Under the pieces are notes generated by a model that saw only the letters and a list, made by a program, of their open reading frames with translations, was not told the DNA's origin and did not search any database. A program made the translations under genes and the position numbers. Positions 39,202 to 62,798 of a stretch of 64,000 bases of DNA are shown here, piece by piece. The number at the start of each line of letters is the position of its first letter. Within the stretch, counting starts at the first letter, position 1. The stretch comes from Pseudofrankia inefficax (GTDB lineage: Bacteria; Actinomycetota; Actinomycetes; Frankiales; Frankiaceae): positions 4,960,001 to 5,024,000 of the forward strand of contig NC_014666.1 in the NCBI RefSeq assembly GCF_000166135.1, in the 5' to 3' direction.

Positions 39202-39221
39202 TGTTAAACGAGAGTTCAGCA
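39202..39221. promoter_or_regulatory. Operator-like palindrome, site 10
   Basis: Halves TGTTAAAC and GTTCAGCA flank GAGA, both of them strong matches to the family. It lies 302 bp before mhpD and is the only site I see for the mhpD-led operon. Confidence 0.6.
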
Positions 39222-46632: not shown

Positions 46633-46889
46633 TGCCCGTCGACATGGCTGCCCTGATCGCGGACCTCGGCGCGGTGCCCGGCGACCGCGCGCCGTCGCGC
46701 TACCGGACGCTGCCGCCGGATCAGACGCCGGCCTGGTTCCGCTCAGCAGCCCAGACAGTGGACCACCGCCAGGCCGGGTCCGCCCGCCGCGAGGACGGAC
46801 GGACCCGGCGAGGCTCACAGCCCTGGCCTCAGGACGCGCGCTGGATCGTCTCGGCCGTCAGGGTGCCGCAGATCGGGAGAGCGCCCTGA
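46632..46889 (+). pseudogene. Possible truncated gene remnant
   Basis: An ATG overlaps the CoA-ligase stop by one base (TGATG), and about 37 codons (MPVDMAALIADLGAVPGD...) have the strong third-position GC of real coding sequence. The frame then runs through a terminator stem and into the antisense of the next gene. I do not recognise the peptide. It may be the 5' end of a lost operon gene, or chance. Confidence 0.25.
46773..46809. terminator. Bidirectional hairpin terminator
   Basis: A perfect 10-bp stem GCCGGGTCCG/CGGACCCGGC with a 17-base loop lies between the convergent CoA-ligase operon and binding-lipoprotein gene. Confidence 0.7.
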
Positions 46890-48085
46890 ACGGGCGTGAA
46901 GGCGCTGCCCTCGTACTTGGACACGAACAGGCACTCGCCCGTCGTGATCTTCTTCTGGTTGATGTCGTACGTCTTCCCCGGACCGAACAGACCCAGCCCG
47001 TCCCAGTCGTGAATGCCCCGCAGCGCCGTCAGCAGCGACGCCGACGTCGGGCCCGCGCCGGCAGCCTTCAACGCGCGGACCAGCAGACCCATGGTGATGT
47101 AGCCGTCGTACTGGGCGAACGTCGGTTCACCCGTGACTCCCGCGGCTTTCAGGTCACTCTCAAACTGCTTGGTGGCCGCCGTCTGCATCTCCACCGGCTC
47201 GTAGGCCAGCGAGAAGTAGGAGCCCTGCGCGGTCTGCGTCGCGCCTGGGCCAGCCTGTGTCAGGTCACCGCCGTACCCGGTGGGCAGGAGCGAGGCCTTG
47301 AGCTTCACGCCCTGGTCCTGGAGCGCCTTGAGGAGCACGAAGGCGGTGTTCGGGTCGACGGTCGCGAAGAACCCGTCGACGCCGGCGTTCTTCATCGCCA
47401 GCACCACCGGGCCGATGTCCGTGGTACCGAACGGGAGCTGGATGTTCTCGTAGCCCACCTTGACCCCGGCCAGCTTCGCCGACGCGGCCGCCTCGCTCGC
47501 GGCGGCCTGCGACTGCGGCGACACCGAGTAGGCCAGCGTCGCCAGGTTGGTCACGCCCAGCTTCTTCATCGTCTGGCCCAGAGTCGTGGTGACCTCGTCA
47601 TTCAGCGTCGGCCCGGTGATGGAGAACATGTTCGGCGAGGTGAACCACTCCCGGCCGTCCTGGGCGAACCCGATCACCGGAACGTTGTGCGCGGTGAGGT
47701 ACTGCGCGGCCGCGAAGAACAACGCCGAGTGGGCCAACACGGCGGTGACATGGTTCTGGGTGACGAGCTTCTGCGCCGCCGACAGCACGGTCGCCGGGTT
47801 CGTCGCCGTGTCCGCGACGACATACTTGATCGTGTATCCCTGTCGGGCGGCGTAGTACGTCCCGGCCTTGAACCCGTCGAGACTCGACTTGTTCCCGGAC
47901 GCGGCCGCACCGGTCACATCGGCTAACACGCCGACCGTGATCGTCGCCTTCGACGCGGTTCCCCCGGCGGCACTCGCGCCGCCGCCGGACGAGCCGCCGC
48001 AGGCCGCCACCCCGAGCAGCATGGCGGCCGTACCGACGGCCGCCAGGCCAAACCGTTTCCGCCGCAGGTGCACGGATAGATTCAT
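46829..48085 (-). CDS. ABC-type substrate-binding lipoprotein, paralogue B
   Basis: A 418-residue binding lipoprotein with lipobox VAAC (Cys29) and a mature domain very like paralogues A and C. The ATG starting MNLSVHL follows AAGGGGAAAG; a longer upstream frame is not homologous. A 132-base block (47622-47753) differs from the matching block of paralogue C by one base, and the upstream 283 bp, ending in an operator-like site, also resembles that of C. It has a TTA codon at 54. It is a single gene between a terminator and the divergent hydrolase. Confidence 0.92.
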   Translation of the reverse strand: MNLSVHLRRKRFGLAAVGTAAMLLGVAACGGSSGGGASAAGGTASKATITVGVLADVTGAAASGNKSSLDGFKAGTYYAARQGYTIKYVVADTATNPATVLSAAQKLVTQNHVTAVLAHSALFFAAAQYLTAHNVPVIGFAQDGREWFTSPNMFSITGPTLNDEVTTTLGQTMKKLGVTNLATLAYSVSPQSQAAASEAAASAKLAGVKVGYENIQLPFGTTDIGPVVLAMKNAGVDGFFATVDPNTAFVLLKALQDQGVKLKASLLPTGYGGDLTQAGPGATQTAQGSYFSLAYEPVEMQTAATKQFESDLKAAGVTGEPTFAQYDGYITMGLLVRALKAAGAGPTSASLLTALRGIHDWDGLGLFGPGKTYDINQKKITTGECLFVSKYEGSAFTPVQGALPICGTLTAETIQRAS

Positions 48086-48443
48086 CTTTCCCCTTGTCCT
48101 GTCCACGGCGATGCCGCCGAAACTGCGATGGCTGGCCGTGTACCGACCGCGAGGCGTCGCGACCCGGAGCTCACTGCTGGGCCGGAAGCACTGTCGGCCA
48201 TCGCCAATCATTGAATTCGGGCCAGGATTCGGCAAAAGGGCACACCGAAAGCCCGGGCCTCGAGGCGCCGGAGGATGGCGCGGCGGACGTTCCGCCCCGC
48301 CCCAGAGACACCGGTTTACTCGATGTCGCCGCCCCGCCCGAATGTCGTATGGTGCACTCCATCGTCCTGCTGAACGGATGTATAGCAGGACCAAACGCGC
48401 GTGTCAACGCGGTCGGAGCGCCCGCCGCGGGTGATCGTCTCGA
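48086..48443. other. Divergent regulatory region, duplicated upstream of paralogue C
   Basis: This 358-bp stretch lies between paralogue B and an alpha/beta hydrolase. Segments such as GCCGAA-N2-TGCGATGGCTGG and a later TTGAATTCGGG-like block have counterparts at 61389-61560. An operator-like site sits exactly 283 bp from the lipoprotein start in both regions. No coding sequence is supported. Confidence 0.55.
48368..48387. promoter_or_regulatory. Operator-like palindrome, site 11
   Basis: Halves TGCTGAAC and GTATAGCA flank GGAT, close to the family consensus. It lies 283 bp before the minus-strand lipoprotein and 57 bp before the plus-strand hydrolase. Confidence 0.65.
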
Positions 48444-49466
48444 ATGCCTGGAGCCGCTTTGTCAGACGCAGGAACCGACGTCAAGGTCATCGACATCCGT
48501 GTGGCGGTTCCCGGCGCACCCGTCGGCGAGGCGGCCTGGGAGATCGCGGCGACCGTCCACGTCGACGAGGCGCGCAGCGCGCGATCTCCGGTCCTCGTCC
48601 TTCTTCCCGGCGGCGGCTACGGCCGGCGCTACTTCGACCTGCCCGACCTCGGATACAGCCAGGCCGACCACCACGCCCGCCGCGGGGCCATCGTCGTCGC
48701 GCTCGACCACCTCGGGGCCGGGGACAGCACCAGCCCCGCCCCGGACGTCACCACGCTGCCGACCGTGGCCGCGGCGAACCACGCCGCCGTCACGGCCGTG
48801 CTGGACCGGCTGCGGGACGGCACCCTCGCGCCCGGCGCCGTGCCCCGCGTCGAGGTCTCGGCGGTCGTCGGCGCCGGCCAGTCGATGGGCGGCCACATCG
48901 CCGCCGCGATGCAGGCCCAGCACCGCACGTTCGACGCCATCGCGCTGATGGGCAGCAGCGTGATCGACACGACGATTCCGCGCCGCCAGCCGGCGGCCTC
49001 GAGTCTCCTCCCGGGCCAACCGGCGGCCGACGCTCTCGCCGACCTCGACTGGCCCTGGGCGTTCCACTGGGTGGAGGAACTCACCCCGCTCACGGCGGCC
49101 GACATCGAGGCCGGTATCCCGGTCAAGACGACGGCCCTGCCCTGGTCGAGCAGGACCGTGCCCAGTCTCGCGGTCGCGCTTCTCGAACCTGGCGCGATCG
49201 CCGCCGAGGTCGCCACGATCGACGTGCCCGTTCTGCTGGCCGCCGGTGAACGAGATGTCGTGCGCCCACTTCTCACCGAGGCGGCCGCTTTCACCTCGGC
49301 CCGCGACCTCGCCGTGTTCCGGCTCCGACGGATGGCGCACATGCACAACTTCGCACCCACCCGCCACCTGCTGTGGGAGCGTCTCGACGCCTTCATCGCC
49401 CAGGCAGTGAGCCTCGCCTCCAGAGCGAAAACGCTTCCCACACTCATGGCCGCTGGGCCGCGGTAG
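48444..49466 (+). CDS. Alpha/beta hydrolase
   Basis: A 340-residue soluble alpha/beta hydrolase. LVLLPGGGYGRRYF (about 51-64) is the oxyanion region, the nucleophile is in VVGAGQSMGGH (near 150), the acid in LLAAGERDVV and the histidine in RMAHMHNFAP. I cannot place it in a named esterase family. The start has only a weak ribosome site; an operator-like palindrome is 57 bp upstream. A strong terminator follows, so it is a single-gene unit. By context it is another ester-cleaving enzyme. Confidence 0.78.
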   Translation: MPGAALSDAGTDVKVIDIRVAVPGAPVGEAAWEIAATVHVDEARSARSPVLVLLPGGGYGRRYFDLPDLGYSQADHHARRGAIVVALDHLGAGDSTSPAPDVTTLPTVAAANHAAVTAVLDRLRDGTLAPGAVPRVEVSAVVGAGQSMGGHIAAAMQAQHRTFDAIALMGSSVIDTTIPRRQPAASSLLPGQPAADALADLDWPWAFHWVEELTPLTAADIEAGIPVKTTALPWSSRTVPSLAVALLEPGAIAAEVATIDVPVLLAAGERDVVRPLLTEAAAFTSARDLAVFRLRRMAHMHNFAPTRHLLWERLDAFIAQAVSLASRAKTLPTLMAAGPR

Positions 49467-49488
49467 GAACCAAAGCTGTTCCAGCAGA

Positions 49489-49535
49489 CGGCAGGTCGTC
49501 GGGTGCGCCGTGACCGGCGCACCCGACGACTGCCG
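49489..49535. terminator. Strong bidirectional hairpin terminator
   Basis: A 15-bp perfect stem (GTCGTCGGGTGCGCC and its complement) with a 6-base loop is extended by CGGCAG/CTGCCG after a one-base bulge. It separates the convergent hydrolase and PD40-like lipoprotein genes. Confidence 0.78.
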
Positions 49536-49567
49536 CCGCCGGCCCAGATCAGACGTCGTCTGTCCGG

Positions 49568-51436
49568 TCAGGCTCCGCTGGCGGGCTGGGTGTAGGTGCG
49601 TCCATCGAGGACGGTCGTCATCGTCCCGGTCGGCAGGAACTTGTTCTGCAGGAGCAGGTCCGGGCCGAGGGTGAAGCCGCCCGGGCTGGTCGACTTGCTT
49701 CCGGTGTGCTGGCCGGAGAGTGTGATGTTCGCGTTCCAGGTCACGACCTCGTTGAGAGGCGTCGTGCCGACAATGCTCACCTTCTCCGTCCCGTTTAGCA
49801 CGTAGCCCGGCTTGTCGACGACGTCGCGGAAGGTGACGTCGATGCTCGCGATCGCCGTGTCGGCCGCGTTGTGGGTGATCACCACGCTGGCGCTTCCCGA
49901 CACCTTCCCGTCCACCGTGTAGGTACCGGCTGGCAGCGGCGTCGGCGGCGGGAGTTGCTGGCCCTGGGTCGCCGGCAGCCCCCAGGTCCGGTCGGACGTG
50001 ACGGGCGGCGCCACGGCCTTGCTCGCCGGGAGCGTGGGGAACCGGGCGATCATCGTTCTGCTGTTGCGGCCGCCCGGCTCGGTCGAGTCGGGGCACTTGT
50101 GCGGGGTCGGGTTGGCGCCGCAGGCGAGGTTCTCGGTGTAGACCACCGCGGTGCTGTCAGCCAGCCAGGCGGGGTCCGCGGCCGTGTTCCAGGCGGCGTC
50201 GGCGCCCTTGTTGATCTGTTGGTGGACCTTTCCGTCGGTGCCTACCAGCCAGGGCAGGAAGAACCGGCGGTTACCGTTGTTGCGGATTCCTGAGACGTAG
50301 CCGATGGTCGAGAGCTGGTCGGTGATCGGCGGAATGCCCTCCATACCCGAGATGAAGTCCAGCCTGCCGGAACCGATCACCTCCTCGGCGAGGAGCCACC
50401 TGCCGTCCGGCGACATGGACATCGGGTCCGTGTACTCGGCATGGTCGGTCAGCGCCCGGGACTTCCCCGTCGCGAGCGAGGTCTCCCAGGCGTCGACGCT
50501 GTCCGACTCATAGGCCTGGATCCCGAGCGTCGCGGTGCCGTCGTTGTTCCAGCCCCGGAGCTCGCCGACCATGCCGGCGCTGTTGAAGGTGAGCTTGTTC
50601 CCAGGGCCGACGACGTACGGCGCATATCTGGTGTCCGACGGGTTGTAGAGCGCCGAGACGTTGACGAGGTCGTAGCGCTTGTTCGCCTTGTCGTAGGTGA
50701 GGCGGCCGGCGAACGGGACCTCGCTGAACGTGGCCAGGTCCAGGGTGTCCCAGGCGAGGTGGACGCCGTCAGGACTGAGCCGCCATTCCCGGCCGGTCAG
50801 GCCGCGCAGCGGCTTCGTGCCCCAGTAGATCGGGGCGATGCGGGTGTTGGCGGGCGTGCACCGCGGGTCCGTCACGGCGTAGTCGGCGCCGTTCTGGCCG
50901 CATTCGAGTATCCCGTTTCCGACGAGCACGTGCCTGCCGTCGGGCAGTTCGTGCGCGGGCGGGTAGGGGAACTGGGTCGGGTCGATGTCGGCGCCGAAGG
51001 CGACCCCGCAGGTGATGCACTTCCAGGCGTTACCGTCGGCGAACGTCGTGCCGTCGGTCCTGACGACGATGACCTGTGGGCCGTTGTAGACACTGGCCGG
51101 GCTCGGCGCGGCGGGCGCGCCGGCATACGTGATGCCCAGCAGCACGTAGTGGGGGTCCCAGTAGAAGCCCGGCGAGCCGAGGCCACCCCAGTTCGCGGAG
51201 ACACAGCCCGTCGGGCTAGCGCATATGCCGTCCGCCGGGACGGTCGGCGGGACCGGAAGCTCCGAGAACTTGACCGGAATGTTGGTCGATGCCGGCGACG
51301 CGGGGGTGGACTGGGGCGACGACGAGGTACACCCCTGCACGGCTAATGCGGCGGCTACCGCGACCGTCAGCACGCCTAAGAGACCGCGCCACCTTCTTCC
51401 CTGAAGTTTTCGGCGCGGCGAACTGCTTTTCACCAT
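49568..51436 (-). CDS. Secreted lipoprotein with PD40/TolB-like propeller features
   Basis: A 622-residue predicted lipoprotein: Arg/Lys-rich start, hydrophobic core, and VQGC with Cys36, followed by a Ser/Thr/Pro linker. The body carries repeated WRLSPDGVHLAWDT, MSMSPDGRWLLAEE and WLADSTAVVYTE-like strands, as in PD40/WD40-type beta-propellers, and a C-terminal beta-rich domain (about 510-622). A CITCG motif and several other cysteines suggest disulfides or metal binding. GAGAGGA before the second of two close ATG codons fixes the start. No catalytic motif is recognised; binding of a polymer or ligand outside the membrane is inferred. Confidence 0.7.
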   Translation of the reverse strand: MVKSSSPRRKLQGRRWRGLLGVLTVAVAAALAVQGCTSSSPQSTPASPASTNIPVKFSELPVPPTVPADGICASPTGCVSANWGGLGSPGFYWDPHYVLLGITYAGAPAAPSPASVYNGPQVIVVRTDGTTFADGNAWKCITCGVAFGADIDPTQFPYPPAHELPDGRHVLVGNGILECGQNGADYAVTDPRCTPANTRIAPIYWGTKPLRGLTGREWRLSPDGVHLAWDTLDLATFSEVPFAGRLTYDKANKRYDLVNVSALYNPSDTRYAPYVVGPGNKLTFNSAGMVGELRGWNNDGTATLGIQAYESDSVDAWETSLATGKSRALTDHAEYTDPMSMSPDGRWLLAEEVIGSGRLDFISGMEGIPPITDQLSTIGYVSGIRNNGNRRFFLPWLVGTDGKVHQQINKGADAAWNTAADPAWLADSTAVVYTENLACGANPTPHKCPDSTEPGGRNSRTMIARFPTLPASKAVAPPVTSDRTWGLPATQGQQLPPPTPLPAGTYTVDGKVSGSASVVITHNAADTAIASIDVTFRDVVDKPGYVLNGTEKVSIVGTTPLNEVVTWNANITLSGQHTGSKSTSPGGFTLGPDLLLQNKFLPTGTMTTVLDGRTYTQPASGA

Positions 51437-51586
51437 CTGCATTCCTCTCTTGCCGTTCCGCGCGGGCCCTGCACCCAGCGCGGATATCGGATGATGCTCG
51501 ACGGGTGCAGGCGCGAGAATCTGATGCGGGCATACCGATATCGCCGACGGCGCCCGATTCGCCGGCCGCGTCACCGGATTTCGGGC

Positions 51587-53263
51587 TCACTCCCGTCCGA
51601 GCGATCCCGCCTGGTGGTCGAACCGCGCCGCCAGGTCCGGGTGGTAGACGACCAGCCTGCCCGCGTGCTCGCGTTTTGCCGCGTACATCGCCAGGTCTGC
51701 CTGGTGGAGCAAAGCGTCCGGGCTGGCCGGTCGCGCGGTGGGATCGAGCGTGACGAGGCCCAGGCTGGCGCGCGGGATGTAGGTCTGGCCCGCCAGCCGG
51801 CAGGGCGTCTGGACCGCGGTCGCGAGCCGCTCGGCGACGCGGACCGGTCCGTCGGGGCCGCCACCGTCCAGGATCACGGCGAACTCGTCGCCACCGATAC
51901 GCGCGACCGTGTCGCTGGCACGAGCGCCCGCCCGCAGCCGCGCCGCGCTGATCCTGAGGAGCTCGTCGCCGGCGGCGTGCCCGAACGTGTCGTTGACCGC
52001 CTTGAAGTGGTCGAGGTCGAGGAACAGGACGGACACGCCGGTCTGTCGCTCGGTCGGTGCACCGTCCGCAGCCGGCTCACTGTCGGGGTCCACGACTCCC
52101 CGCAGGCGCCGGGTGAACAGCGCCCGGTTCGCCAGACCGGTCAGCGGGTCATGAAACGCCAGGCGCTGCAGCTGGGTCCCGCGTTCCCTCACCTCGGCGA
52201 GCAGGCCGGTGTTCTCGGCGATGGTGAGCATCTGCCGGGCGAGCGCCAGCACGAGCAAGGACACGAGGCCGTATGACTCAAGTCGGTCGACCGTTGCTCC
52301 GGTCGCCCTCCTGCCAAGGACCAGCAGACCGGCGACAACGAGCACGGCGTAGGGCAGCGCGGCGTGCGCCCACATCGTCCGTGGACCGGGTGGAGCCCGG
52401 TCATCCAGATCCACCGAGGCCGGCATCGGCGCCAATGCGGCAAGAGCGATCAGCAGTAGCGAGGCGATGAACGGGATGAGGCTCCACGCGGGAAGGTCGT
52501 AGCGGCCGTGGGCGGTCCGGTAGACGAAGACGCTGTTCGTCAGGCCGTAGACCAGCAGGCCGCCGCCCAGCAACGCCGAGGTCAAGGGGGACCGCGGCCG
52601 CCGGAAGGTCGCGATCAGGAGGACGGCCGCCGCGAGGGCCAGCACGGTCACCTGCTGAACCAGGGAGGCCGTCAACACCACGGGGTCGAGCCCGGCGGAC
52701 CGGGCGACCGCCTGAAGCACCGTCCCCCATTCGAGGAGGAGAAGCGAACCGACGATCAGCACGCTGTCCATCACCACGATGGCATGCCAGCGACCCGCCC
52801 CGCCTCGCCGCCCTCGCCCGGTCCTGCCCTCCACCCGACAGGTGGGCAGGGACAGCAGTCCGGCGAGCGCCAGCCCGTAGAACGCGACCAGGACCAGATA
52901 TCCCGAAGTCGACTGGGCGGCGACCGAGCCGCCGGTCAGCAGCGTCACCAACGTCAACAGCCCGCCCCAGGCAAGTCCGACCGCGAACAGGCCGATGAGG
53001 ACCCGCCATCGCCGGTCACCGACGGCGGCCCGCCGAGCAGTCCAGAAGCAGGCCGACGCGGCGCCGACCTCGGCGACGAGGTCTCCGGCCGTCGTCGCGA
53101 TCCGGGCCGGGCGCGGGTCCAGCGACGCGGTAGCCAGGACCGCGAGCACGAGGAAAAGCAGACAGCCCACCACCGCGCGCCGGAAGGCCCTCGGCCCGGC
53201 GGGCCGACCAGCCGACGGCAGAGAGCCCGGCTCGCCGCTCCCGACAACGCGCAGCCTCGCCAT
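51587..53263 (-). CDS. Membrane diguanylate cyclase (GGDEF domain)
   Basis: A 558-residue protein with eight or nine membrane spans in the first 380 residues and a C-terminal GGDEF domain. The active-site motif GGDEF is intact at 457-461, and RASD five residues before it forms a product-inhibition I-site (RxxD-x5-GGDEF). FHDPLTGLANRALF and LDLDHFKAVNDTFGHAAGDELL are also intact. No EAL domain follows. It should make cyclic di-GMP in response to a membrane or ligand signal. The ATG follows GGGAGGAG. It lies 219 bp downstream of the CocE-ended operon and is likely a separate unit. Confidence 0.9.
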   Translation of the reverse strand: MARLRVVGSGEPGSLPSAGRPAGPRAFRRAVVGCLLFLVLAVLATASLDPRPARIATTAGDLVAEVGAASACFWTARRAAVGDRRWRVLIGLFAVGLAWGGLLTLVTLLTGGSVAAQSTSGYLVLVAFYGLALAGLLSLPTCRVEGRTGRGRRGGAGRWHAIVVMDSVLIVGSLLLLEWGTVLQAVARSAGLDPVVLTASLVQQVTVLALAAAVLLIATFRRPRSPLTSALLGGGLLVYGLTNSVFVYRTAHGRYDLPAWSLIPFIASLLLIALAALAPMPASVDLDDRAPPGPRTMWAHAALPYAVLVVAGLLVLGRRATGATVDRLESYGLVSLLVLALARQMLTIAENTGLLAEVRERGTQLQRLAFHDPLTGLANRALFTRRLRGVVDPDSEPAADGAPTERQTGVSVLFLDLDHFKAVNDTFGHAAGDELLRISAARLRAGARASDTVARIGGDEFAVILDGGGPDGPVRVAERLATAVQTPCRLAGQTYIPRASLGLVTLDPTARPASPDALLHQADLAMYAAKREHAGRLVVYHPDLAARFDHQAGSLGRE

Positions 53264-53482
53264 CACTCCTCCCGCCGGCAGCCCGCCGTCACCCTCGATG
53301 CGCAGACGGCGACAGCCCGCGGCCTGGACACCTGGTCGAGGCACTACGCCGCTCCCGATGGGCTTGCCCCACTCCGGTTCACCGAACCGGCGGGAGGCCC
53401 CTGCCCACGGCCGGCGGATGTCCGCGCCCACGCCCGCAGGGGGCACGGGCGGCCCACCCGCGCCATCCGCGCTCACACCTCG

Positions 53483-55114
53483 TCAGTCGCCTCGGCGGAC
53501 CGGCAGGATGACCGCCGAGGGATGGGTCTCGTCGTGGAAGACGGTCTGGCTGGCGGCCCGCAGAGTGGTCGCGCTGCCGCGGGGCTCGCCGGTACCGGGG
53601 TTGCGGTTGTACCGGGGGAAGGCGCCGCTGGAGATCTGGACGCGGATGCGGTGCCCCTGCTTGAACCGGTGGGCGGTGGCGAACAGTCGCACCCGCGCGC
53701 AGGTGTCCCGGTCGGCGTCGGTCAGGCTCGTGAGGCCGTCAGTGACGTTGAAGGAGCGGCCGTCGGTTCTGACGTCGCAGACCCGGACGAACACGTCGGC
53801 GAACGGCAGGCTGGACCGGAACCAGATCTCGGCGTCGACGTCGCCGATGATCTCGACGTCGTGGTCCAGTGGCGGCGTGGTGTACGTGAGAACGTCAGGC
53901 CGCGCCTCAAGCCGGGTGTTGTCGACCGACCCGGTGTTGGTCTGGAAGCGGGACCCGCCGACGGCCGGGGTCGGATCCGCCGGGTCGTACCGGTAGCCGT
54001 CGGGGGCCGACGCCGCCGGATCGTCCGTGGACAGACCGCCGCCCGGTTGCAGCTGGAACCGCTGGGGCGAGTAGCCCTCGGGCGGCCACGAGGCGAAGTC
54101 GCGCCACTCCTCGAGCCCCTGGACGAACAGCCGGACGGGCGCGCGGTCGCCGGGTTGCTCCCCACGGGCGTGAGCCAGGCCGAAGTCGAGCAGCTCCTGC
54201 ATGCCGAGCTTGATCGGCTCGGCGGTCATGCTGTGCGCCCAGGGCCCGACCGTGAGCCGGGCCGGGCGGCCGGCCGCCTGCAGAGCGGTGAAGTCGCGGA
54301 GCTGGCCGGGCAGGAAGAAGTCGTGCCAGCCGGCGATCGAGCTGACCGGGATCGTCACGTCGGCGACTCGGGCGCTGTGATCGGCGCGCGCCCAGTACGG
54401 GGAGGCGGCGTCGTGGGCCAGCATGTCCTGGATGTAGTCGATGCGATGGCCGACGCCACGCTGGTCGGCCGTGTTCAGCGGCAGGCTCGCGATCAGGCGG
54501 TTCATCTTGCGCCGGCCGGCCAGGCCGGGGTGCCGCAGCAGCGCCAGCGGGCGTTCCTGCCCGTCGACCACGAAGCCCCAGATGAACGGGATCTCCAGCG
54601 CGAAGCCGTCGGAGCGCAGGAATTCCAGCAGCGTCGCCGACTCGCTCTGGATCGGGATCATGGCCTTGACCTGCGGTGGCACCTGATCGGCGACGGCCCA
54701 CTGGGTGTAGCCGAGATAGCTGGGCCCGTAGAGCAGGATGGAATCGCCGAACCAGGGCTGTTTGAGGATCCAGTCCAACGTGTCCAGACCGTCGTCGCGT
54801 TCGGGACGAAGCGGGTCGAAGGTGCCGCCGGAGCCGAAGGTGCCACGGGCGTTGGTGATGAACACCTGGAATCCACGCTCGGCGATGGGCCTCGCGAGCG
54901 GATAGGTGGCCGAGGTGTGGCTGCCGTAGGTGGTGCGGATCAGTACGGTCGGAAGACCCTCGGCGCCCGACTTCGGGAACCAGTGGTCGGCGACCAGTTC
55001 GACGCCGTCGCGCATCGGTACCCGCAGGTTGCGATGCACGGTCACGTCACGGGTCAGCGGCGGTGGTAACTGCTGGGTCTTCTGCAGCAGGCGGCTCATC
55101 AGGTTGAGCTTCAT
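53483..55114 (-). CDS. CocE/NonD-family hydrolase
   Basis: A 543-residue S15-type esterase with LRVPMRDGVELVADHWFP (30-47), nucleophile Ser132 in LLYGPSYLGYTQW and a C-terminal domain ending QGHRIRVQISSGAFPRYNRNPGTG. The ATG overlaps the HSL hydrolase stop by four bases (ATGA), so I prefer it to an upstream GTG. It is the last gene of a five-gene operon (CoA ligase, crotonase, SDR, HSL hydrolase, CocE). Substrate unknown; the pairing of two unrelated esterase types in one operon is repeated at 5846-8649. Confidence 0.9.
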   Translation of the reverse strand: MKLNLMSRLLQKTQQLPPPLTRDVTVHRNLRVPMRDGVELVADHWFPKSGAEGLPTVLIRTTYGSHTSATYPLARPIAERGFQVFITNARGTFGSGGTFDPLRPERDDGLDTLDWILKQPWFGDSILLYGPSYLGYTQWAVADQVPPQVKAMIPIQSESATLLEFLRSDGFALEIPFIWGFVVDGQERPLALLRHPGLAGRRKMNRLIASLPLNTADQRGVGHRIDYIQDMLAHDAASPYWARADHSARVADVTIPVSSIAGWHDFFLPGQLRDFTALQAAGRPARLTVGPWAHSMTAEPIKLGMQELLDFGLAHARGEQPGDRAPVRLFVQGLEEWRDFASWPPEGYSPQRFQLQPGGGLSTDDPAASAPDGYRYDPADPTPAVGGSRFQTNTGSVDNTRLEARPDVLTYTTPPLDHDVEIIGDVDAEIWFRSSLPFADVFVRVCDVRTDGRSFNVTDGLTSLTDADRDTCARVRLFATAHRFKQGHRIRVQISSGAFPRYNRNPGTGEPRGSATTLRAASQTVFHDETHPSAVILPVRRGD

Positions 55115-56121
55115 CGGGCGGCCGCCCACTGCCGCTCGCAGAACTGACGCACCTGCGCCTGGCGCTGATGGTCCTCGGGGGCCAGGCCGAGGAACATGAA
55201 GTGCGGCGCGCCTTCCCAGACGTGCAGTTCCGCTTCCACCCCCGCCGCCAGCAGCGTCCGGTGCAGCCGCACGGTGTCCGAGAGCAGGAAGTCGCGGGTG
55301 CCGGTGGTCAGGATGGTCGGCGGGAAGCCCTTGCCGAAGTCGCCGAACAGCGGGGAGACATACGGGTCACGGCGATCATGCCCGTCTGTGTAGAGCTTGA
55401 AGACGGTTTCCAGCTCTGCCTCGTCGTAGGAGATGTCCACGCCCTGACTGGCCTGGTAGGAGTCACCGACCTTGGTGAGGTCGATGGGAGGCGTGTTCAC
55501 CACGGCGGCGGCCGGCAGCGGCAGGCCCTCGTCGCGGGCCCGCAGGATCGTCGCCACCGTGAGGTTCGCCCCGCCGGACATGCCGCCGATGATGATGTCC
55601 TCGGGCCGATGCGCGTCGAGCAACGCGCGGTAGGCGGTGAGGCAGTCGTCGAGCGGGGTCGGGAACGGGTGGAACGGCGGCATCCGGTAGTCCACCGCCC
55701 ACGTCTTCGCGCCGAGGCCGCCGGCGGTCATCGCGGCGCCCAGCCGGGCCAGCTCGCCGCCCCCATAGATCCAGGCTCCGTGAATGACCAGGTAGACCCG
55801 GCGGTCGTCAGCGGCAAGGCTGTCCGGAATCGCCTGCCAGACGCCGACGCCGTCGAGCTCGATGCGGGCGGTCGCGCAGGGCACGCCGGTGTCGGCGGCG
55901 CCGTAGCAGGACGCGACCATCGGCCCTTCCGCGCCTGGCGGCGCCGCCGCGTTCCGCTCGTCGATGAACGCCTGCACCGCCTCGCGGTCGTCCAGCGGCG
56001 GCCACGGCTTGAAAGGCAGCGGATTGCCCATCGCGATGATGGCCTGCGCGGGCTCGCTCAGCGTCGTGGGGACCGGGACCAGTCGTTCGGGAATCCGCGT
56101 CGGGGGGTGGGAGCTCGTCAC
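55111..56121 (-). CDS. HSL-type alpha/beta hydrolase with altered oxyanion motif
   Basis: A 336-residue family-IV-like esterase. Nucleophile Ser182 in GGMSGGAN, acid in TGTRDFLLSD and His in GAPHFMFLG are intact, but the HGGG oxyanion motif reads HGAW (114-117). The region DYRMPPFHPFPTPLDDCLTAYRALLDAHRPEDIIIGG matches the paralogues at 7654-8649 and 62909-63889. I chose a GTG (MTSSHPP) placed nine bases after GAGAGGA; an ATG three codons upstream would leave no spacing. It is coupled to the CocE gene and lies 32 bp after the SDR. Confidence 0.87.
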   Translation of the reverse strand: MTSSHPPTRIPERLVPVPTTLSEPAQAIIAMGNPLPFKPWPPLDDREAVQAFIDERNAAAPPGAEGPMVASCYGAADTGVPCATARIELDGVGVWQAIPDSLAADDRRVYLVIHGAWIYGGGELARLGAAMTAGGLGAKTWAVDYRMPPFHPFPTPLDDCLTAYRALLDAHRPEDIIIGGMSGGANLTVATILRARDEGLPLPAAAVVNTPPIDLTKVGDSYQASQGVDISYDEAELETVFKLYTDGHDRRDPYVSPLFGDFGKGFPPTILTTGTRDFLLSDTVRLHRTLLAAGVEAELHVWEGAPHFMFLGLAPEDHQRQAQVRQFCERQWAAAR

Positions 56122-56153
56122 AGCTGGCATTCCTCTCGGCAGCAGGTGCGGGG

Positions 56154-56912
56154 TTAGCGAATGGACGAGCCGATACCGAGCCCGCCGTCGACGTCGAGGA
56201 CGACGCCGGTGATGTAGCCGGCCGCCGGCGAGGTGAGGAACGCGGCGGCCTCGGCGATGTCGGTGGGCTGGCCGGTCGCGCGCTGGGGCACCTTGCCGAC
56301 GAGCTTCGCCCGGGCCGGCGCGTTCATCGAGGCGAGCATCGGGGTCTCGATCAGCCCGGGGGCGATGGCGTTGACGGTGATGCCGTCGCGGGCCGTTTCC
56401 AGCGCGATGGCGCGGGTCAGGCCGACGATCCCGGCCTTGGCGGCGACGTAGTTCGCCTGCCCGAAGTTGCCGCGCCAGCTCATCGAGCTGAATGACACGA
56501 TGCGCCCATAGCCGCGGGCCCGCATGTGCGGGATCACCGCGCGAGCGCAGTGGAAGCTTCCCGTCAGGGAGACGTCGACAACCGCGTGCCAGTCCGCGTC
56601 GCTGATGGCGGTGACCCGGTTGTCCCGGATGATGCCGGCGTTGTTGATGAGAACGTCGATCCGCCCACGCCGCGCCGCCACGTCGTCGATCCACTCGGTG
56701 ATCGCGGCCGAGTCCGTCACGTCGACGCCGACGGCCTCGGCGGGCTGACCGAACTGGGCGCGCAACGCCTCGGCCTGGGCGGCCGCGGTGTCCTTGTCGA
56801 GGTCGCCGATGACCACGGTGGCGCCCTCGGCGGCGAACCGGTGGGCCATCGCCGCGCCGAGGCCCTGGCCACCGCCGGTGACGAGGACGACCTGGTCGGT
56901 GAAGCGGTTCAC
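56154..56912 (-). CDS. SDR-family oxidoreductase (FabG-like)
   Basis: A 252-residue classical SDR with TGGGQGLG (12-19), NNAG, and SSMSW...YVAAK catalytic residues, ending with DVDGGLGIG. Likely an NAD(P)-dependent 3-hydroxyacyl or similar dehydrogenase. GTG start overlapping the crotonase stop (GTGA). In an operon with a CoA ligase and a crotonase, it completes a beta-oxidation-like set. Confidence 0.9.
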   Translation of the reverse strand: MNRFTDQVVLVTGGGQGLGAAMAHRFAAEGATVVIGDLDKDTAAAQAEALRAQFGQPAEAVGVDVTDSAAITEWIDDVAARRGRIDVLINNAGIIRDNRVTAISDADWHAVVDVSLTGSFHCARAVIPHMRARGYGRIVSFSSMSWRGNFGQANYVAAKAGIVGLTRAIALETARDGITVNAIAPGLIETPMLASMNAPARAKLVGKVPQRATGQPTDIAEAAAFLTSPAAGYITGVVLDVDGGLGIGSSIR

Positions 56913-57703
56913 GCTGGCTGCTCCGTTCGGGTCGTGGCGGGGCGGTTGACGAAGTCCCGCAGCGCGGCGGCGACGTCGTGGGCAGCCCAGTGCGCGTCGA
57001 AGGCGTCCAGTTCCAAGGCCAGCGCGGCGGGAGTCTCCATCGCCGGCGTCTGGGCGAGCAGCCGCTTGTAGCCGCTCTGGGCCGGCCCGTGTGTCCGGGC
57101 CAGGGTCTCGGCGATCCGCAGCGCGGCCGGCCCGACCTCGTCCGGCGCGACGACCTCGTGGGGCCAGCCGGTGGCGGCGAGCCGCTCGGCCGGCATCAGC
57201 TCGCCGGTCAGCGCGAGCCGCCGCGCGGTCGCCTGGCCCAGCATCCGCGGCATCCGCACCGCGGCGCCGCCGGCGGGCAGCAGGTTGTTCAGGACGTGCC
57301 CGTCGCCGATCAGTGTGCCGGCCGCGGCGACGACGACGTCGCAGGCCAGGGCCAGCTCGATGCCGCCCGCGACGGCGTGGCCGTGCAGCCCCGCCACGAT
57401 CGGCAACGGGCTGACCTCCAATCGGGTGGCCAACGCGGACACGGTCCGCAGAAACGCCAGGGGGGTCTCACCGCGCTCGCCGAGGGCGAGGAAGTACCGC
57501 AGGTCGGCGCCGGCGCAGAAACTCCGGCCCGCGCCGAGCAGCACGACTGCGTGCGTCTCCTGGTCCGCCTCCGCCTCGGACAGCGCCTGGTCGAGGGCGT
57601 CGACCAGTGCCGCGTCCAGCGCGTTGCGCCGATGTGGCCGGTTCATCGTCAGGACCCGCACCGCGCCCGACCGTTCGACGCGAAGGATCTCCAGATCGTT
57701 CAT
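56909..57703 (-). CDS. Crotonase-superfamily protein (enoyl-CoA hydratase/isomerase-like)
   Basis: A 264-residue crotonase-fold protein. CoA/oxyanion segments RSFCAGADLRY (60-70) and HGHAVAGGIELALACD (107-122) are present, so the first oxyanion-site Gly and Glu116 are kept. The second glutamate of hydratases, in the FGxPE segment, is His136 (GDGHVLNN). The protein may therefore be an isomerase, thioesterase, C-C lyase or another crotonase reaction rather than a standard hydratase. The ATG overlaps the CoA-ligase stop (ATGA). Confidence 0.85.
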   Translation of the reverse strand: MNDLEILRVERSGAVRVLTMNRPHRRNALDAALVDALDQALSEAEADQETHAVVLLGAGRSFCAGADLRYFLALGERGETPLAFLRTVSALATRLEVSPLPIVAGLHGHAVAGGIELALACDVVVAAAGTLIGDGHVLNNLLPAGGAAVRMPRMLGQATARRLALTGELMPAERLAATGWPHEVVAPDEVGPAALRIAETLARTHGPAQSGYKRLLAQTPAMETPAALALELDAFDAHWAAHDVAAALRDFVNRPATTRTEQPA

Positions 57704-59292
57704 CGGGACCCGCGCCCGCCGAGGACCTCCGCGCGCCGCTGCCGGCGCAGCTCGGCCCGCTGGATCTTGCCGCTCGGCGTCTTCGGCAGGCTGGCCACGA
57801 AGTGGACCCGGCGCGGGTAGGCGTGCGCGGAGTACCGGTCCTTGACCCACCGCCGCAGCTCGTCCTCGGTGACAGCACTGCCGGGGGCGGCCACCACGTA
57901 GGCCTCGACGACCTCGCCGCGGGTCTCGTCCGGCGCGGCGATCACGGCGCATTCGGCGACCGCGGGGTGCTGGGCGAGCACCGACTCCACGTCGAACGGG
58001 CCGATGCGGTACCCGGCCATGATGATCACATCGTCGTCGCGGGAGGAGAAGCGGACGATCCCGGCGACGTCGATGCTCGCCGTGTCACCCGTGACGTAGT
58101 ACCGGCCGTCGCCGACGAACCGGCCGTGGTCATCGCCGTCGGCGTACGCCGTGAAGGTCATGAACGGGCTGTCCGCGACGACGAGCGCGAGCCGGCCGAC
58201 GGTTCCAGGTTCGGCGGGCTCGTCGCGGTCCGGGGCCAGCACCGTCGCCGACCAGCCAGGCAGCGCGACCCCCATCGCGCCGTCGACGACCGGCACCGCC
58301 ACGGCCTCGTGGTGGGGGAAACCGATCGGCATGCCGACCTCGGTCTGCCCGTAGTGGTCATGCACCCGCGCGCCCAGAGCCTCGGGCGCCCAGACGTTCA
58401 CATCCGGCGTCAGCGGCTCCCCCGCGCTGGACAGATACGGCACGTCGAGCGTTCCCGGCTGGAGCTGACCGGAGTTACGCAGGCCGCGATAGGCGGTCGG
58501 GGCGGCGGCGAAGTTGGTCACCTTCAGCTCCGCGAGCACCCACTGTGTCGCCTCCGCGGAGAAGCCGCCGCGTAGCAGAACCGTTGGTATTCCGGCCGCC
58601 AGCGGGGCGACGATCGCCGTGTAGAGACCGTAGGCCCAGCCAGGATCCGCCGCGGACCAGAACACACTGCCGGCGCCGACTCCGAGCCCGAACTCCTGGT
58701 AGCTGTGCCAGCCGCCGATATAGGCGGCCGGATGCACGACGCCCTTCGGGGACCCAGTCGTACCCGAGGTGAACATGTGCACCAACGCGCCGGCTCCCCC
58801 GACCGCGACCGAGCGCGGTTCCCAGGGCTGAGCACGTGCCACCTCGGACGCCACCTCGTCGGCCGGGAGCACCACCCAGGCACCGTCGCCGATCTTGTGG
58901 CGCTGATCGGGGTCGACGATCACCAGACGGGTCTGCGAGCGACGCAGCCGGTCGGTCACGGCGGCCTCGGCGAAGGCGGTGAACAGCGGGACGTACACCG
59001 CACCCACGCGCCAGATCCCGACCAGCACGGTGAGCAGGTCGACGCTCTTGCCCATCAGCGTCGCCACCCGGTCACCACGCCCGATGCCGCGCTCGCTCAG
59101 CACGGCGGCGAACCGCCGCGATGACTCGGACAACTCCGCGTAGGTGACCGTCGTCTCGGCCAGGTCCTCCCCGATCACCCGCGCCGCGACCGCGTGACCC
59201 GGGTGGCGATCGCACAGTAACTGGGCGACGTCGAGCGATGGCGCCGAGTAGCTCGCCACCAACTGTTCGGCGCGCGTTGCCGGGTCGACCAT
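57700..59292 (-). CDS. AMP-forming acyl-CoA synthetase
   Basis: A 530-residue ANL ligase: FTSGTTGSPKG near 175, YGQTEVGMPIGFPHHE, YRIGPFDVESVL, and catalytic lysine in PKTPSGKIQRAEL. It is a paralogue of the enzyme at 4294-5835 (shared LLCDRH start and GFSAEAT segments). The ATG of MVDPATRAEQ follows GAGGAG. It heads the minus-strand operon; ACGTACC repeats lie between it and a divergent TetR gene, which probably controls it. Confidence 0.9.
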   Translation of the reverse strand: MVDPATRAEQLVASYSAPSLDVAQLLCDRHPGHAVAARVIGEDLAETTVTYAELSESSRRFAAVLSERGIGRGDRVATLMGKSVDLLTVLVGIWRVGAVYVPLFTAFAEAAVTDRLRRSQTRLVIVDPDQRHKIGDGAWVVLPADEVASEVARAQPWEPRSVAVGGAGALVHMFTSGTTGSPKGVVHPAAYIGGWHSYQEFGLGVGAGSVFWSAADPGWAYGLYTAIVAPLAAGIPTVLLRGGFSAEATQWVLAELKVTNFAAAPTAYRGLRNSGQLQPGTLDVPYLSSAGEPLTPDVNVWAPEALGARVHDHYGQTEVGMPIGFPHHEAVAVPVVDGAMGVALPGWSATVLAPDRDEPAEPGTVGRLALVVADSPFMTFTAYADGDDHGRFVGDGRYYVTGDTASIDVAGIVRFSSRDDDVIIMAGYRIGPFDVESVLAQHPAVAECAVIAAPDETRGEVVEAYVVAAPGSAVTEDELRRWVKDRYSAHAYPRRVHFVASLPKTPSGKIQRAELRRQRRAEVLGGRGSR

Positions 59293-59307
59293 CACGACTC
59301 CTCGCAT

Positions 59308-59347
59308 GGGTACTTTAGTGCGGCCGAACGTACCGTCTTACGTACCC
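59308..59347. promoter_or_regulatory. Candidate operator with GGGTAC/ACGTACC repeats
   Basis: GGGTACTTTA at 59308 and TTACGTACCC at 59338 form an imperfect 10-bp inverted repeat (8 of 10 pairs), and ACGTACC occurs twice in direct order (59328 and 59340, 12 bp apart). It lies between divergent CoA-ligase and TetR genes and differs from the main palindrome family. Confidence 0.45.
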
Positions 59348-59399
59348 GATCGGCAAGTCCAGGCGCCTCCCCACTCGGTGCTGCGCCAGACTTGGGCAC

Positions 59400-60026
59400 A
59401 TGACGCGTCCAGTCGGCTCGACGCCCGCCACCCCGCTGCGGACACCGCGGCGGCGCCGCGTCGATACCGCGCGGCGCGGGGAGCTCCTGGCGCAGATCAC
59501 CGAGATCTTCCTGGCCGAGGGCTTCACCTCGGTGTCCGTCGACGACCTCGCCCGCCGCATGCACTGTTCGAAGTCGACGCTCTACGGAGTCGGCGGCACG
59601 AAGGAACAGCTGGTGATCGCGGCTACCAAGCACTTCTTCGGCACCGAGGCCGATCGCATCGAGCACGCCGTCGCCGAACAGGACGACCCGCAGGTGAAGA
59701 TCACGACCTATCTGCAGGGCGTGGCCCAGGCGATGCGCCGCAACTCGCCGGACTTCTACGCCGACATGGTCACCTACGCCCCCACCGCGGAGATCTACCG
59801 GCGCAACACCGCCAAGGCCGCCGAGCGCATCCAGGAGATGATCGACGACGGCGTCCGGGCGGGCGTCTTCCGGGCGACCAACGGTACGTTCGCGGCCCAG
59901 ATCGTCGGCCTCGCCCTCGAAGCCGTCCAGTCCGGTGCACTGCTCGAGCGGACCGGACTGTCCGCCGCCGAATCCTTCGCCGAACTCGCCGACCTGCTCT
60001 TCAACGGACTCCGGCAGGCGAGCTGA
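59400..60026 (+). CDS. TetR-family transcriptional regulator
   Basis: A 208-residue TetR protein with an Arg/Pro-rich N-terminus and helix-turn-helix at about 35-75 (FTSVSVDDLARRMHCSKSTLYGVGGTKEQLV). The usual STLYxHFxSKEEL reads STLYGVGGTKEQL. It is divergent from the CoA-ligase-crotonase-SDR operon and is the obvious candidate regulator of it. The ATG has only a weak ribosome site and may be leaderless. A strong palindromic terminator follows. Confidence 0.88.
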   Translation: MTRPVGSTPATPLRTPRRRRVDTARRGELLAQITEIFLAEGFTSVSVDDLARRMHCSKSTLYGVGGTKEQLVIAATKHFFGTEADRIEHAVAEQDDPQVKITTYLQGVAQAMRRNSPDFYADMVTYAPTAEIYRRNTAKAAERIQEMIDDGVRAGVFRATNGTFAAQIVGLALEAVQSGALLERTGLSAAESFAELADLLFNGLRQAS

Positions 60027-60075
60027 GGACCTCACCGGGCACCGCTCTCGCGCGGCCGGCCACGCGAAAAGGCCA

Positions 60076-60110
60076 CAGGGAAGCCCTCGGCCGGGCCGAG
60101 GGCTTCCCTG
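60076..60110. terminator. Strong bidirectional hairpin terminator
   Basis: A 17-base arm CAGGGAAGCCCTCGGCC and its exact complement are separated by a single base. It lies between the convergent TetR and binding-lipoprotein genes. Confidence 0.78.
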
Positions 60111-60122
60111 CTCACCGGGCTG

Positions 60123-61388
60123 TCAGGACGCGCGCTGGATCTTCTGATCCGTCAGGGTGCCGCACAGCGGGAGAGCACCCTGCACAGGCTTGAAGGCGCT
60201 GCCCTCGTACTTGACCACGAACAGGCACTCGCCGGTCGTGATCTTCTTCTGGTTGATGTCGTACGTCTTCCCCGGACCGAACAGACCCAGGCCATCCCAG
60301 TCGTGAATGCCTCGCAGCGCGGTCAGCAGCGACGCCGACGTCGGGTTGGCGCCGGCCGCCTTCAGTGCCCGGACCAGCAGGCCCATCGTGATGTAGCCGT
60401 CGTACTGCGCGAACGTCGGCTCACCCGTGACGCCGGCGGACTTCAGGTCGCTCTCGAACTGCTTCGTCGCGGCCGTCTGCATCTCCACCGGCTCGAAACC
60501 GAGCGAGAAATACGCGCCCTGGGCGATCTGCGACGCACCGGGACCCGCCTGGGCCAGGTCGCCTCCGTAGCCCGTCGCCAGCAGGGCACCCTTCAGCGCG
60601 ACGCCCTGGTCCTTCAGGGACTTCAACATGACGAATGACGTGTTGGCGTCCACCGCACCGAAGAACCCGTCGATACCAGCGTTCTTCATCGCCAGCACGG
60701 GCGGCCCCACGTCGGTCGTACCGAACGGCAGCTGCACGTTCTGGTAGCCGACCTTGATCCCGGCGAGCCGTCCCGAAGCGGCGGCCTCGTTCGCGGCGGC
60801 CTGCGATCCCGGCGCGACGGAGTAGGCCAGCGCGGCCAGATTGGTGACCCCGACCTTCTTGAATATCTGGCCGATGGTGGTCGTGACCTCGTCGTCCAGG
60901 CTGGGCCCGGTGATCGAGAACATGTTCGGCGAGGTGAACCACTCCCGGCCGTCCTCGGCGAACCCGATCACCGGAACGTTGTGCGCGGTGAGGTACTGCG
61001 CGGCCGCGAAGAACAACGCCGAGTGGGCCAACACGGCGGTGACATGGTCCTGGGTGACCAGCTTCTGCGCCATGGACAGCACGGTCGCCGGGTTGGTCGC
61101 CGTGTCCGCGACGATGTATTTGATCGTGTAACCCTCGCGGGACGCGTAGAACGTGCCCGCCTTGAACCCGTCGAGACTCGACTTGTTCCCGGAGGCGGCG
61201 GCACCGGTGACGTCGGCCAGGACGCCGACCGTGACGGTCGCCTTCGGCGCCGACCCGGCGGACGCACTCCCACCGCCGCCCTTGGCAGCCGACGACCCGC
61301 CGCACGCCGCCGCGCCGATCAGGGTGGCGACCACGCAGGCCGCCATCAGACCGAGCCGCTTGCGACTCCCCGTCCTATATAAACCCAT
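60123..61388 (-). CDS. ABC-type substrate-binding lipoprotein, paralogue C
   Basis: A 421-residue binding lipoprotein: basic start MGLYRTGSRKRLGL, lipobox AAAC (Cys29), linker, and a mature domain closely matching paralogues A and B. The conserved leucine of GVLADVT uses CTG here but TTA in A and B. Its nucleotide sequence is nearly identical to B over 60916-61047. An operator-like site lies 283 bp upstream, as for B. No transporter partner genes are near. Ligand probably a carboxylate or aromatic acid (inference). Confidence 0.92.
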   Translation of the reverse strand: MGLYRTGSRKRLGLMAACVVATLIGAAACGGSSAAKGGGGSASAGSAPKATVTVGVLADVTGAAASGNKSSLDGFKAGTFYASREGYTIKYIVADTATNPATVLSMAQKLVTQDHVTAVLAHSALFFAAAQYLTAHNVPVIGFAEDGREWFTSPNMFSITGPSLDDEVTTTIGQIFKKVGVTNLAALAYSVAPGSQAAANEAAASGRLAGIKVGYQNVQLPFGTTDVGPPVLAMKNAGIDGFFGAVDANTSFVMLKSLKDQGVALKGALLATGYGGDLAQAGPGASQIAQGAYFSLGFEPVEMQTAATKQFESDLKSAGVTGEPTFAQYDGYITMGLLVRALKAAGANPTSASLLTALRGIHDWDGLGLFGPGKTYDINQKKITTGECLFVVKYEGSAFKPVQGALPLCGTLTDQKIQRAS

Positions 61389-61670
61389 CTCTTCTCCGAT
61401 TCCTCATTCGCGGCGTTGTCGCCGAATGTGCGATGGCTGGACGAATGGACGCGCGAGGCAACGGCTCCCGGCGCTCGCGGGCGAGCTGGAGGTCGTTGTC
61501 AGCCAGCGACCGGCTTCAACTCGAGGCAGGGTTCGGGAAAGTCAAGCCGGTCCGCCCGCCTCGATGGCAGGGGACACACGGCAGATGTTCGCGTCGCCCA
61601 TCTCCGGGGAGACAACGGCTCGCTCAGACACGTCGGCGGCACCAAAGGTCTCGTAGTGCGGCCGCGGTTC

Positions 61671-61690
61671 CGCTGAACGCATGTATAACG
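61671..61690. promoter_or_regulatory. Operator-like palindrome, site 12a
   Basis: Halves CGCTGAAC and GTATAACG flank GCAT. It lies 283 bp before paralogue C, the same distance as the site before paralogue B, and similarity continues beyond it (AGGAC...TGTCAAC). Confidence 0.6.
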
Positions 61691-61923
61691 AGGACGGACA
61701 GGCATGTCAACCGGCTCGCCGGACCGTTCGCGCGGGCCGCCCGCGACCCGCCAAGGGTCACGCCGGGCCAGCCACCAGGCCCCGCCTCCCGCCATCCGGC
61801 CGGGACGGCGGGGCCGACGACCACTGGGCGCGCCAGGCAGGCAGGCAGGACGGCCCACCAGGACGCGGCGACGGCCAGGCCGATGGCGCCCAGCCAATCG
61901 GGATCTTGCTCGCCAGCCCCAGA

Positions 61924-61943
61924 TGCTATACGGTTGTTCAGCG
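61924..61943. promoter_or_regulatory. Operator-like palindrome, site 12b
   Basis: Halves TGCTATAC and GTTCAGCG flank GGTT. It lies 95 bp before the TetR gene and is nearly the inverse of site 11 at 48368-48387. Confidence 0.6.
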
Positions 61944-62778: not shown

Positions 62779-62798
62779 TGCTAAACAGGTGGTCAGCA
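62779..62798. promoter_or_regulatory. Operator-like palindrome, site 13
   Basis: Halves TGCTAAAC and GGTCAGCA flank AGGT; one more base on each side also pairs (62778 and 62799). It lies 111 bp before the HSL hydrolase. Confidence 0.6.

Follow-up and report, generated by a model that had tools for sequence, protein, structure and literature searches.

We asked whether two substrate-binding protein genes of Pseudofrankia inefficax, paralogues B and C, were copied together with their control regions, and whether a near-identical block inside them reflects later gene conversion. Both lie in the window, the 64,000-nucleotide stretch of contig NC_014666.1 analyzed here. Taken as a whole, an account of duplication of the entire unit, followed by partial conversion of B, appears very probable.

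B (46829..48085, − strand, 418 aa) and C (60123..61388, − strand, 421 aa) encode Peripla_BP_6 substrate-binding proteins with lipobox-like signals (LLGVAAC and LIGAAAC, respectively, spotted by eye in the translations). A third Peripla_BP_6 copy, paralogue A (35331..36596, + strand), sits in a segment that lacks a counterpart in the sister genome, Frankia sp. AgB1.9. All three scored above the Pfam gathering score of 31.7 bits for PF13458 and belong to that profile (A, 221.3 bits, E = 3.7e-65; B, 231.2 bits, E = 3.7e-68; C, 215.7 bits, E = 1.9e-63). The domain match spans most of the protein, as in known type I binding proteins, but unlike in those systems the three genes belong to a catabolic cluster. 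The family scan, which covered 40 of the 52 called window genes, turned up neither a permease nor an ATPase family. The nearest solved structures by sequence, 4ey3 (E = 1e-11) and 4f06 (E = 4e-9), are weak matches. B and C share 83% nucleotide identity, and A is 81% and 83% identical to B and C, respectively, at the amino-acid level. The start of B was set from alignment to A and C and an AAGGGG ribosome-binding site; its reading frame remains open beyond this start, up to a TTG at 48394.

Frankia sp. AgB1.9 holds syntenic orthologues of B (B′) and C (C′), with window positions 46773-51401 corresponding to C278:91015-95659 and 53468-61768 to 95750-104015. Copies of more than 80% identity occurred in two of the eight genus genomes searched, and a single contig scan beyond these found no third genome with such copies.

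Extent and direction of the conversion tract

According to the original prediction, 47622-47753 in B and 60916-61047 in C differ at one base in 132, other gene parts have diverged, and local conversion accounts for the difference. The count proved exact, with the mismatch at 47662, and divergence is non-uniform: the best 40-codon window, from codon 51 on, contains one nucleotide difference, compared with an average of 18.2 (p = 0.0002), and the longest run of B–C identity covers 25 polymorphic sites (p = 0.0002; silent sites alone, p = 0.0004), with 0.0002 being the floor of 5,000 permutations in both tests. Comparison with the related strain AgB1.9, the check proposed for conversion tracts, recovered orthology outside the tract, with the tree ((B,B′),(C,C′)) at a bootstrap of 100/100 (200 replicates). 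In codons 108-145, limits that were picked after the data had been seen, B grouped with C (bootstrap 98), and the orthology tree had an AU p value of 0.015 and was borderline by KH (0.049) and SH (0.05). The run test and the 3SEQ-like tests are free of that weakness; one of the 12 latter tests returned p = 0.00005 for B as a mosaic of B′ and C. Paralogues that are closer to each other than to their syntenic orthologues within a bounded tract, with orthology outside it, form the pattern of ectopic conversion, and local gene conversion is supported as the origin of the B–C block.

The predicted extent did not hold. The strictly supported tract is 85 bp and at most 115 bp, comprising 47669..47753 in B (− strand, codons 111-139, identical to C; outer limit 47663-47777) and, in the probable donor C, 60963..61047 (− strand; outer limit 60957-61071). 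It is shorter than 132 bp because the lone mismatch at 47662 is the base that B shares with its orthologue; columns 436 (47662) and 477 both retain the B-lineage base. For the 3′ part of the 132-bp block, conversion is not supported, and this remainder requires none.

Since B and C were found in two genomes only, the reading of when and in which direction conversion occurred draws on just 14 informative sites. At eight sites B, C and C′ agree against B′, at three C′ alone differs, and at three B and C agree against B′ and C′. Divergence between B and B′ rises in codons 111-155 (0.111 versus 0.056, p = 0.021), with the rise losing significance over the wider codons 104-158 (p = 0.12). C–C′ divergence is not raised in codons 111-155 (0.044 versus 0.053); within the 85 bp, six C–C′ differences slightly exceed the C–C′ average. 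These patterns suggest that C was probably the donor and B the recipient, after the split from AgB1.9. Conversion from B to C, an earlier event or derivation of both copies from a third source, such as the allele of an unsampled strain, seems unlikely. The first finds some footing in the test of C as a mosaic of C′ and B (p = 0.0046), and an older event in a tract tree that places B beside (C,C′) and is not rejected (AU 0.097), but a different direction or timing sits poorly with the eight sites at which B leaves B′ for the state common to C and C′ and with B–B′ differences being raised where C–C′ differences are not. At sites 361 and 395, moreover, the state is restricted to B and C among the five sequences, which also weighs against these alternatives. 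With C as the probable donor, homologous recombination between the copies, presumably the route, would have rewritten short pieces after the split, with whatever advantage this might bring, and replaced at least 85 bp of B (codons 111-139) in this genome; the replaced stretch may belong to the binding domain's first lobe.

Shared control region of B and C

The operator-like dyads of B (GCTATACATCCGTTCAGC, 48369..48386, − strand) and C (GTTATACATGCGTTCAGC, 61672..61689, − strand) are each 18 bp long and, as predicted, end exactly 283 bp from the start codon. Each contains the −10 element of a predicted promoter, read by motif as TTGACA-N17-TATACA, at 48379..48407 for B and 61682..61710 for C (both − strand). 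All four genes, B and C as well as B′ and C′, are preceded by this promoter and dyad; the B dyad recurs as the same 18-mer in AgB1.9, and the C dyad differs there by one base. Because AgB1.9 has syntenic orthologues of both genes with this promoter and dyad, the B/C duplication is older than the split from AgB1.9.

The leaders of B (48086..48368) and C (61389..61671), both on the − strand and 283 bp from dyad to ATG, are homologous, in agreement with the partial match noted earlier (local score 128; null 28.7 ± 4.7). The match emerges only when small compensating indels are allowed, ungapped identity in the 283-bp register being at chance level (85/283 = 0.30). Homology extends from the ATG back to about −330, just ahead of the −35 box (score 161 for −330..0; null 29.3 ± 4.7, maximum 51 in 500 dinucleotide shuffles). 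No significant likeness between B and C was found at −700..−330 (score 63, null 51 ± 8, p = 0.086), and homology 3′ of the stop codons was likewise not significant (z of 2.1 for B–C, 0.4 for A–C and 2.8 for A–B). The proposal that the control regions were copied along with the genes is supported, because promoter, dyad and leader are homologous in both copies and in two genomes, with homology ending just upstream of the −35 box. Equal 283-bp spacing was also considered as a sign of intact copying and ruled out: since the match needs compensating indels and the AgB1.9 spacings are 287 and 277, the equality is coincidental.

Paralogue A retains about 100 bp of the leader, its 3′ part only (z of 7.1 against C and 3.3 against B), and lacks a B/C-like promoter or dyad upstream. 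We surveyed 36 upstream regions, 30 from family members of this genome (A, B and C included) and six from other genus genomes, for the dyad with up to three mismatches within 310 bp upstream of the match start. Only B, C, B′, C′ and one further region (L005) had hits, the last with three mismatches, GC-rich and at −181. A possible hairpin, CGGCG-N4-CGCCG, a candidate leader element, lies just 5′ of the ribosome-binding site in A, B, C and B′ and, with a wobble pair, in C′; judged by eye, it was not recognized in the other 31 stretches. When the last 75 nt are folded, the minimum-energy structure contains it in two of the five (A and C, not B, B′ or C′).

That each promoter gained the dyad independently within a regulon is very improbable. 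Dyads are indeed scattered across the cluster, one of them upstream of a distant binding-protein gene (15071-16354) whose leader shows no homology to the B and C leaders (z of 0.6 and 0.7), but between B and C the entire leader aligns, beyond the dyad, and copy A retains the 3′ part of it. Duplication of the unit remains preferred. An ancestral unit of ~1.6 kb, with promoter, embedded operator-like dyad, ~280-nt leader and binding-protein gene, would have been duplicated within the catabolic cluster before the two genomes split, both copies retaining the promoter with its −10 hexamer in the dyad. The case documents a promoter-plus-leader duplication unit.

Dyads and TetR regulators across the cluster

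In the window, 13 dyads with up to three mismatches were found versus 2.9 expected, a count that none of 100 shuffles reached. Among the listed genome dyads with at most one mismatch, 11 of 19 lie inside the window or next to it, within 72 kb, for a pattern itself derived from sites inside the window. TTGAC stands exactly 21 bp upstream of five of 36 oriented dyads (background frequency 0.0006). The dyad at 14744..14761 (+ strand), which precedes the gene at 15071-16354, also has TTGAC 21 bp upstream. Eleven of 12 chosen cluster dyads have an AgB1.9 counterpart at or near the syntenic place; the twelfth (39203..39220, unstranded) is in a segment without an AgB1.9 match, flanked by a TetR gene (38253-38912) on one side and by divergent genes of catabolism (FAA hydrolase, acetaldehyde dehydrogenase and aldolase) on the other.

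Several dyads adjoin regulator genes. A TetR-family regulator at 13999..14640 (+ strand; PF00440, 7.7e-16) has a dyad upstream (13790-13807), and a second member of its subfamily (21852..22454, − strand, 37.5% identical) is preceded by a weak dyad at 22490-22507 and another dyad at 22720-22737. Relatives at C1:4951983-4952552 and 4981885-4982442 have upstream dyads too. A TetR-family regulator of another subfamily adjoins C (62038..62721, + strand, scanned as the longer frame 61681-62721), with an unstranded dyad at 61925-61942 between the two genes, 95 bp upstream of the chosen start; a further unstranded dyad (62780..62797) precedes an Abhydrolase_3 gene (62909-63889). The B/C dyad is part of a cluster-wide, TetR-associated set of operator-like sites that is open to direct testing, and the subfamily of the 13999..14640 regulator is the leading candidate binder.

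In TetR-family repression, the operator can lie over the −10 element. The B/C arrangement resembles this in that the 18-bp dyad overlaps a sigma-70-type −10 and dyads occur beside TetR genes, and it differs in the ~280-nt leader between dyad and gene and in a dyad family, GCTGAACNNNNGTTCAGC, that we matched to no named regulator. A TetR-type repressor might block RNA polymerase at the dyad until a catabolite, presumably its ligand, frees the promoter.

Silent divergence and possible recurrent exchange

Synonymous divergence between B and C is 0.036 in the tract versus 0.56 elsewhere. Selection on DNA or protein as the cause of the near-identical block is highly implausible: the block does code for a conserved stretch of the binding domain, with dN low among all copies (0.01–0.07), but synonymous sites in the tract codons vary in other pairs (dS of 0.998 for A–B, 0.868 for A–C, 0.317 for B–B′ and 0.285 for B′–C′), and the A–B value in particular means that constraint did not cause the low B–C dS.

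Conversion, the preferred reading, has precedents in the bacterial tuf genes, paralogues that are described as undergoing ectopic gene conversion and evolving in concert (PMC5485169, PMC6053082). Non-reciprocal copying between duplicated protein genes and paralogues closer than syntenic orthologues are common to both cases, but conversion between B and C is partial (85–115 bp, with copies otherwise ~17% diverged), whereas tuf copies are near identical in these accounts (PMC5485169, PMC6053082). Within the searched literature, as far as its available text extends, no report of conversion among such binding-protein genes in Frankia was found. Both processes, duplication and conversion, are already known in bacteria, and B/C is a well-resolved instance with no new mechanism: a clean, polarized partial conversion between diverged protein paralogues of a high-GC actinomycete. 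It is also a caution that phylogenies of large binding-protein families, with 58 related loci in this genome, can be mosaic.

Additional mosaic tracts point to recurrent conversion. At five sites in codons 300-332, A and B agree against B′, C and C′, which may reflect C′-to-B′ conversion in AgB1.9 (3SEQ-like p = 0.0002) or, alternatively, A-to-B conversion in this genome (p = 0.019). A broader scenario is rather improbable, in which short-tract exchange among co-regulated copies recurs in both lineages and maintains a mosaic pool, shuffling binding-domain segments under common promoters. Its tracts would be codons 111-139 of B, about 307-345 of B′ in AgB1.9, and a segment of C′ or C within about 334-419.

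Paralogues and their orthologues in Frankia sp. AgB1.9

The Peripla_BP_6 proteins B (46829-48085, minus strand) and C (60123-61388, minus strand) share 83.0% nucleotide, 70.1% third-position and 83.0% amino acid identity over 418 shared codons. A third copy, A (35331-36596, plus strand), is 81.1% identical to B and 80.4% to C in nucleotides. The family is large: at E 0.001 or better, the genome has 58 loci related to C, and 27 of these show at least 43% identity. The genome is a single contig of 8,815,781 bases; a passage of PMC8542509 gives 8.8 Mb for F. inefficax and places AgB1.9 closest to cluster 4, which includes this species. Among eight genus genomes including our own, several of them drafts, copies with >80% identity occurred only in our genome and in AgB1.9, where both B and C have syntenic orthologues (B' and C'). 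Outside the conversion tract described below, dS was 0.185 for B-B', 0.191 for C-C' and 0.56 for B-C; treated as an approximate clock, these values make the duplication about three times as old as the split from AgB1.9.

The segment 24178-36821, which contains A, has a counterpart of only ~260 bp in AgB1.9 (88503-88764); A was thus lost there or gained here. These 12.6 kb also carry genes for a Rieske dioxygenase, a LigB dioxygenase and an acyl-CoA ligase. The segment 38945-46773, with FAA hydrolase, acetaldehyde dehydrogenase and aldolase genes, resembles a meta-cleavage lower pathway; no match of ≥200 bp was found within the AgB1.9 stretch examined.

A probable conversion tract in B

The original prediction proposed duplication with the control region, followed by local gene conversion across a 132-bp block (47622-47753 in B, 60916-61047 in C). 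It was right on both processes; we shorten the tract and propose a direction, probably from C to B. The single mismatch between the blocks was confirmed. In an alignment of A, B, C, B' and C', B is identical to C at 85/85 bases in columns 345-429. Eight sites here have B, C and C' differing from B', three have B and C against B' and C' (two of them, columns 361 and 395, with a state common to B and C alone) and three are unique to C'. At columns 318-320 and 436, B matches B' and C matches C', bounding the event on both sides. Informative columns place the tract at 47669-47753 in B (outer limit 47663-47777), matching 60963-61047 in C (outer limit 60957-61071); two additional differences within the outer limits are both unique to B. 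Conversion is not needed for the remainder of the block to 47622: B has the base of its own lineage at 47662, and at every other variable site there B' or A alone deviates.

B groups with C inside the tract and with its orthologue outside (bootstrap 98 for B+C inside, 100/100 for orthology outside). The longest B-C agreeing run spans 25 polymorphic sites (p 0.0002, 5000 permutations; silent sites, p 0.0004), and the run test in the A/B/C set gave p 5e-5 (20,000 permutations). A 3SEQ-like test, one of 12, yielded p 0.00005 (Bonferroni ~0.0006). For an interval chosen from the data, the orthology tree inside the tract had AU p 0.015, KH 0.049 and SH 0.05, while a topology placing B next to (C,C') was not rejected (AU 0.097).

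Conversion was likely recurrent. B' appears mosaic at columns 921-1035 (3SEQ-like p 0.0002), for which an A-to-B event in our genome is an alternative explanation, and C' at columns 1080-1257 (p 0.00005). The B'-C' run at columns 1215-1259 had p 0.0024 with all sites and 0.70 with silent sites only. Ten of the 12 3SEQ-like tests fell below 0.05; they are non-independent, since several triplets register the same event, and differing rates across the gene may also play a part. Recurrence is therefore shown less firmly than the B tract. The underlying processes are established in bacteria: PMC5485169 describes a precedent in tuf genes, and PMC6053082 judges concerted evolution using synteny.

Control regions of B and C

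Copying of the control regions is supported by local alignment of B and C over -330..0 (score 161; shuffled sequences, 29.3 ± 4.7). No significant similarity was detected over -700..-330, so homology begins just 5' of the -35 box. Both promoters, like those of B' and C', read TTGACA-N17-TATACA, with the -10 within an 18-bp operator-like dyad (48369-48386 for B, 61672-61689 for C). The dyad lies 283 bp from the ATG in both genes, as predicted. We withdraw this equal spacing as an argument for intact copying: the distance is 287 in B' and 277 in C', making the equality a coincidence, and ungapped upstream identity is at chance level. Gapped, the last 335 bp are 59.5% identical (195/328, 14 gap columns), compared with 85% for B-B' and 75% for C-C'; this upstream DNA drifts. 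A shares ~100 bp before the ATG with C (z 7.1; z 3.3 against B), and an acyl-CoA ligase gene occupies the expected promoter position upstream of A.

Dyads in the catabolic cluster and a candidate regulator

The region is a catabolic cluster with esterases, acyl-CoA ligases, a Rieske dioxygenase, a LigB-type dioxygenase, an aldolase and several TetR regulators (Pfam, covering 40 of the 52 genes called in the window). With up to three mismatches, GCTGAACNNNNGTTCAGC occurs 13 times in the window against 2.9 expected, a count reached in 0/100 shuffles. Using GCTRWACNNNNGTWYAGC, a pattern derived from sites of this window, with at most one mismatch, 11 of the 19 listed genome sites fall within 4950774-5022797 of the contig. 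Allowing two mismatches gave 89 sites versus 74 in the reversed control, so weaker sites are mostly chance. TTGAC stands exactly 21 bp 5' of five of 36 oriented sites (0.02 expected from background frequency), the B and C dyads among them. The strict promoter-plus-dyad pattern occurred in three of the eight genus genomes (two sites in our own, three in AgB1.9, one in a third), with zero sites in their reversed controls. The distant binding-protein gene at 15071-16354 also has its own dyad and TTGAC box; its leader, 309 bp long for a start set by heuristic, shows no homology to the B and C leaders.

GCTGAACNNNNGTTCAGC dyads recur between cluster genes and next to TetR genes, some with TTGAC 21 bp upstream: at 20-37, 13790-13807, 14744-14761, 17488-17505, 22720-22737, 39203-39220, 61925-61942 and 62780-62797, and upstream of the window at C1:4950774-4950791 and C1:4952593-4952610 (-9226 and -7407 in window numbering). 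Of the 12 cluster dyads formed by these and the B and C sites, 11 have an AgB1.9 counterpart at or near the syntenic place; three in-gene three-mismatch hits and the weak site 22490 were omitted, and 61672, dropped by the symmetry filter of this comparison, was entered from the pattern searches of genome and window.

A dyad lies upstream of each of three cluster TetR genes of one subfamily (C1:4951983-4952552, 4973999-4974637 and 4981885-4982442), which makes this subfamily the leading candidate, by association only, for the dyad-binding protein. Scoring 150 of the 210 first-look candidates at E 1e-15 gave 11 members of it, and the association derives from the three in the cluster. TetR genes of other subfamilies (38253-38912 and 62038-62721) also lie near dyads.
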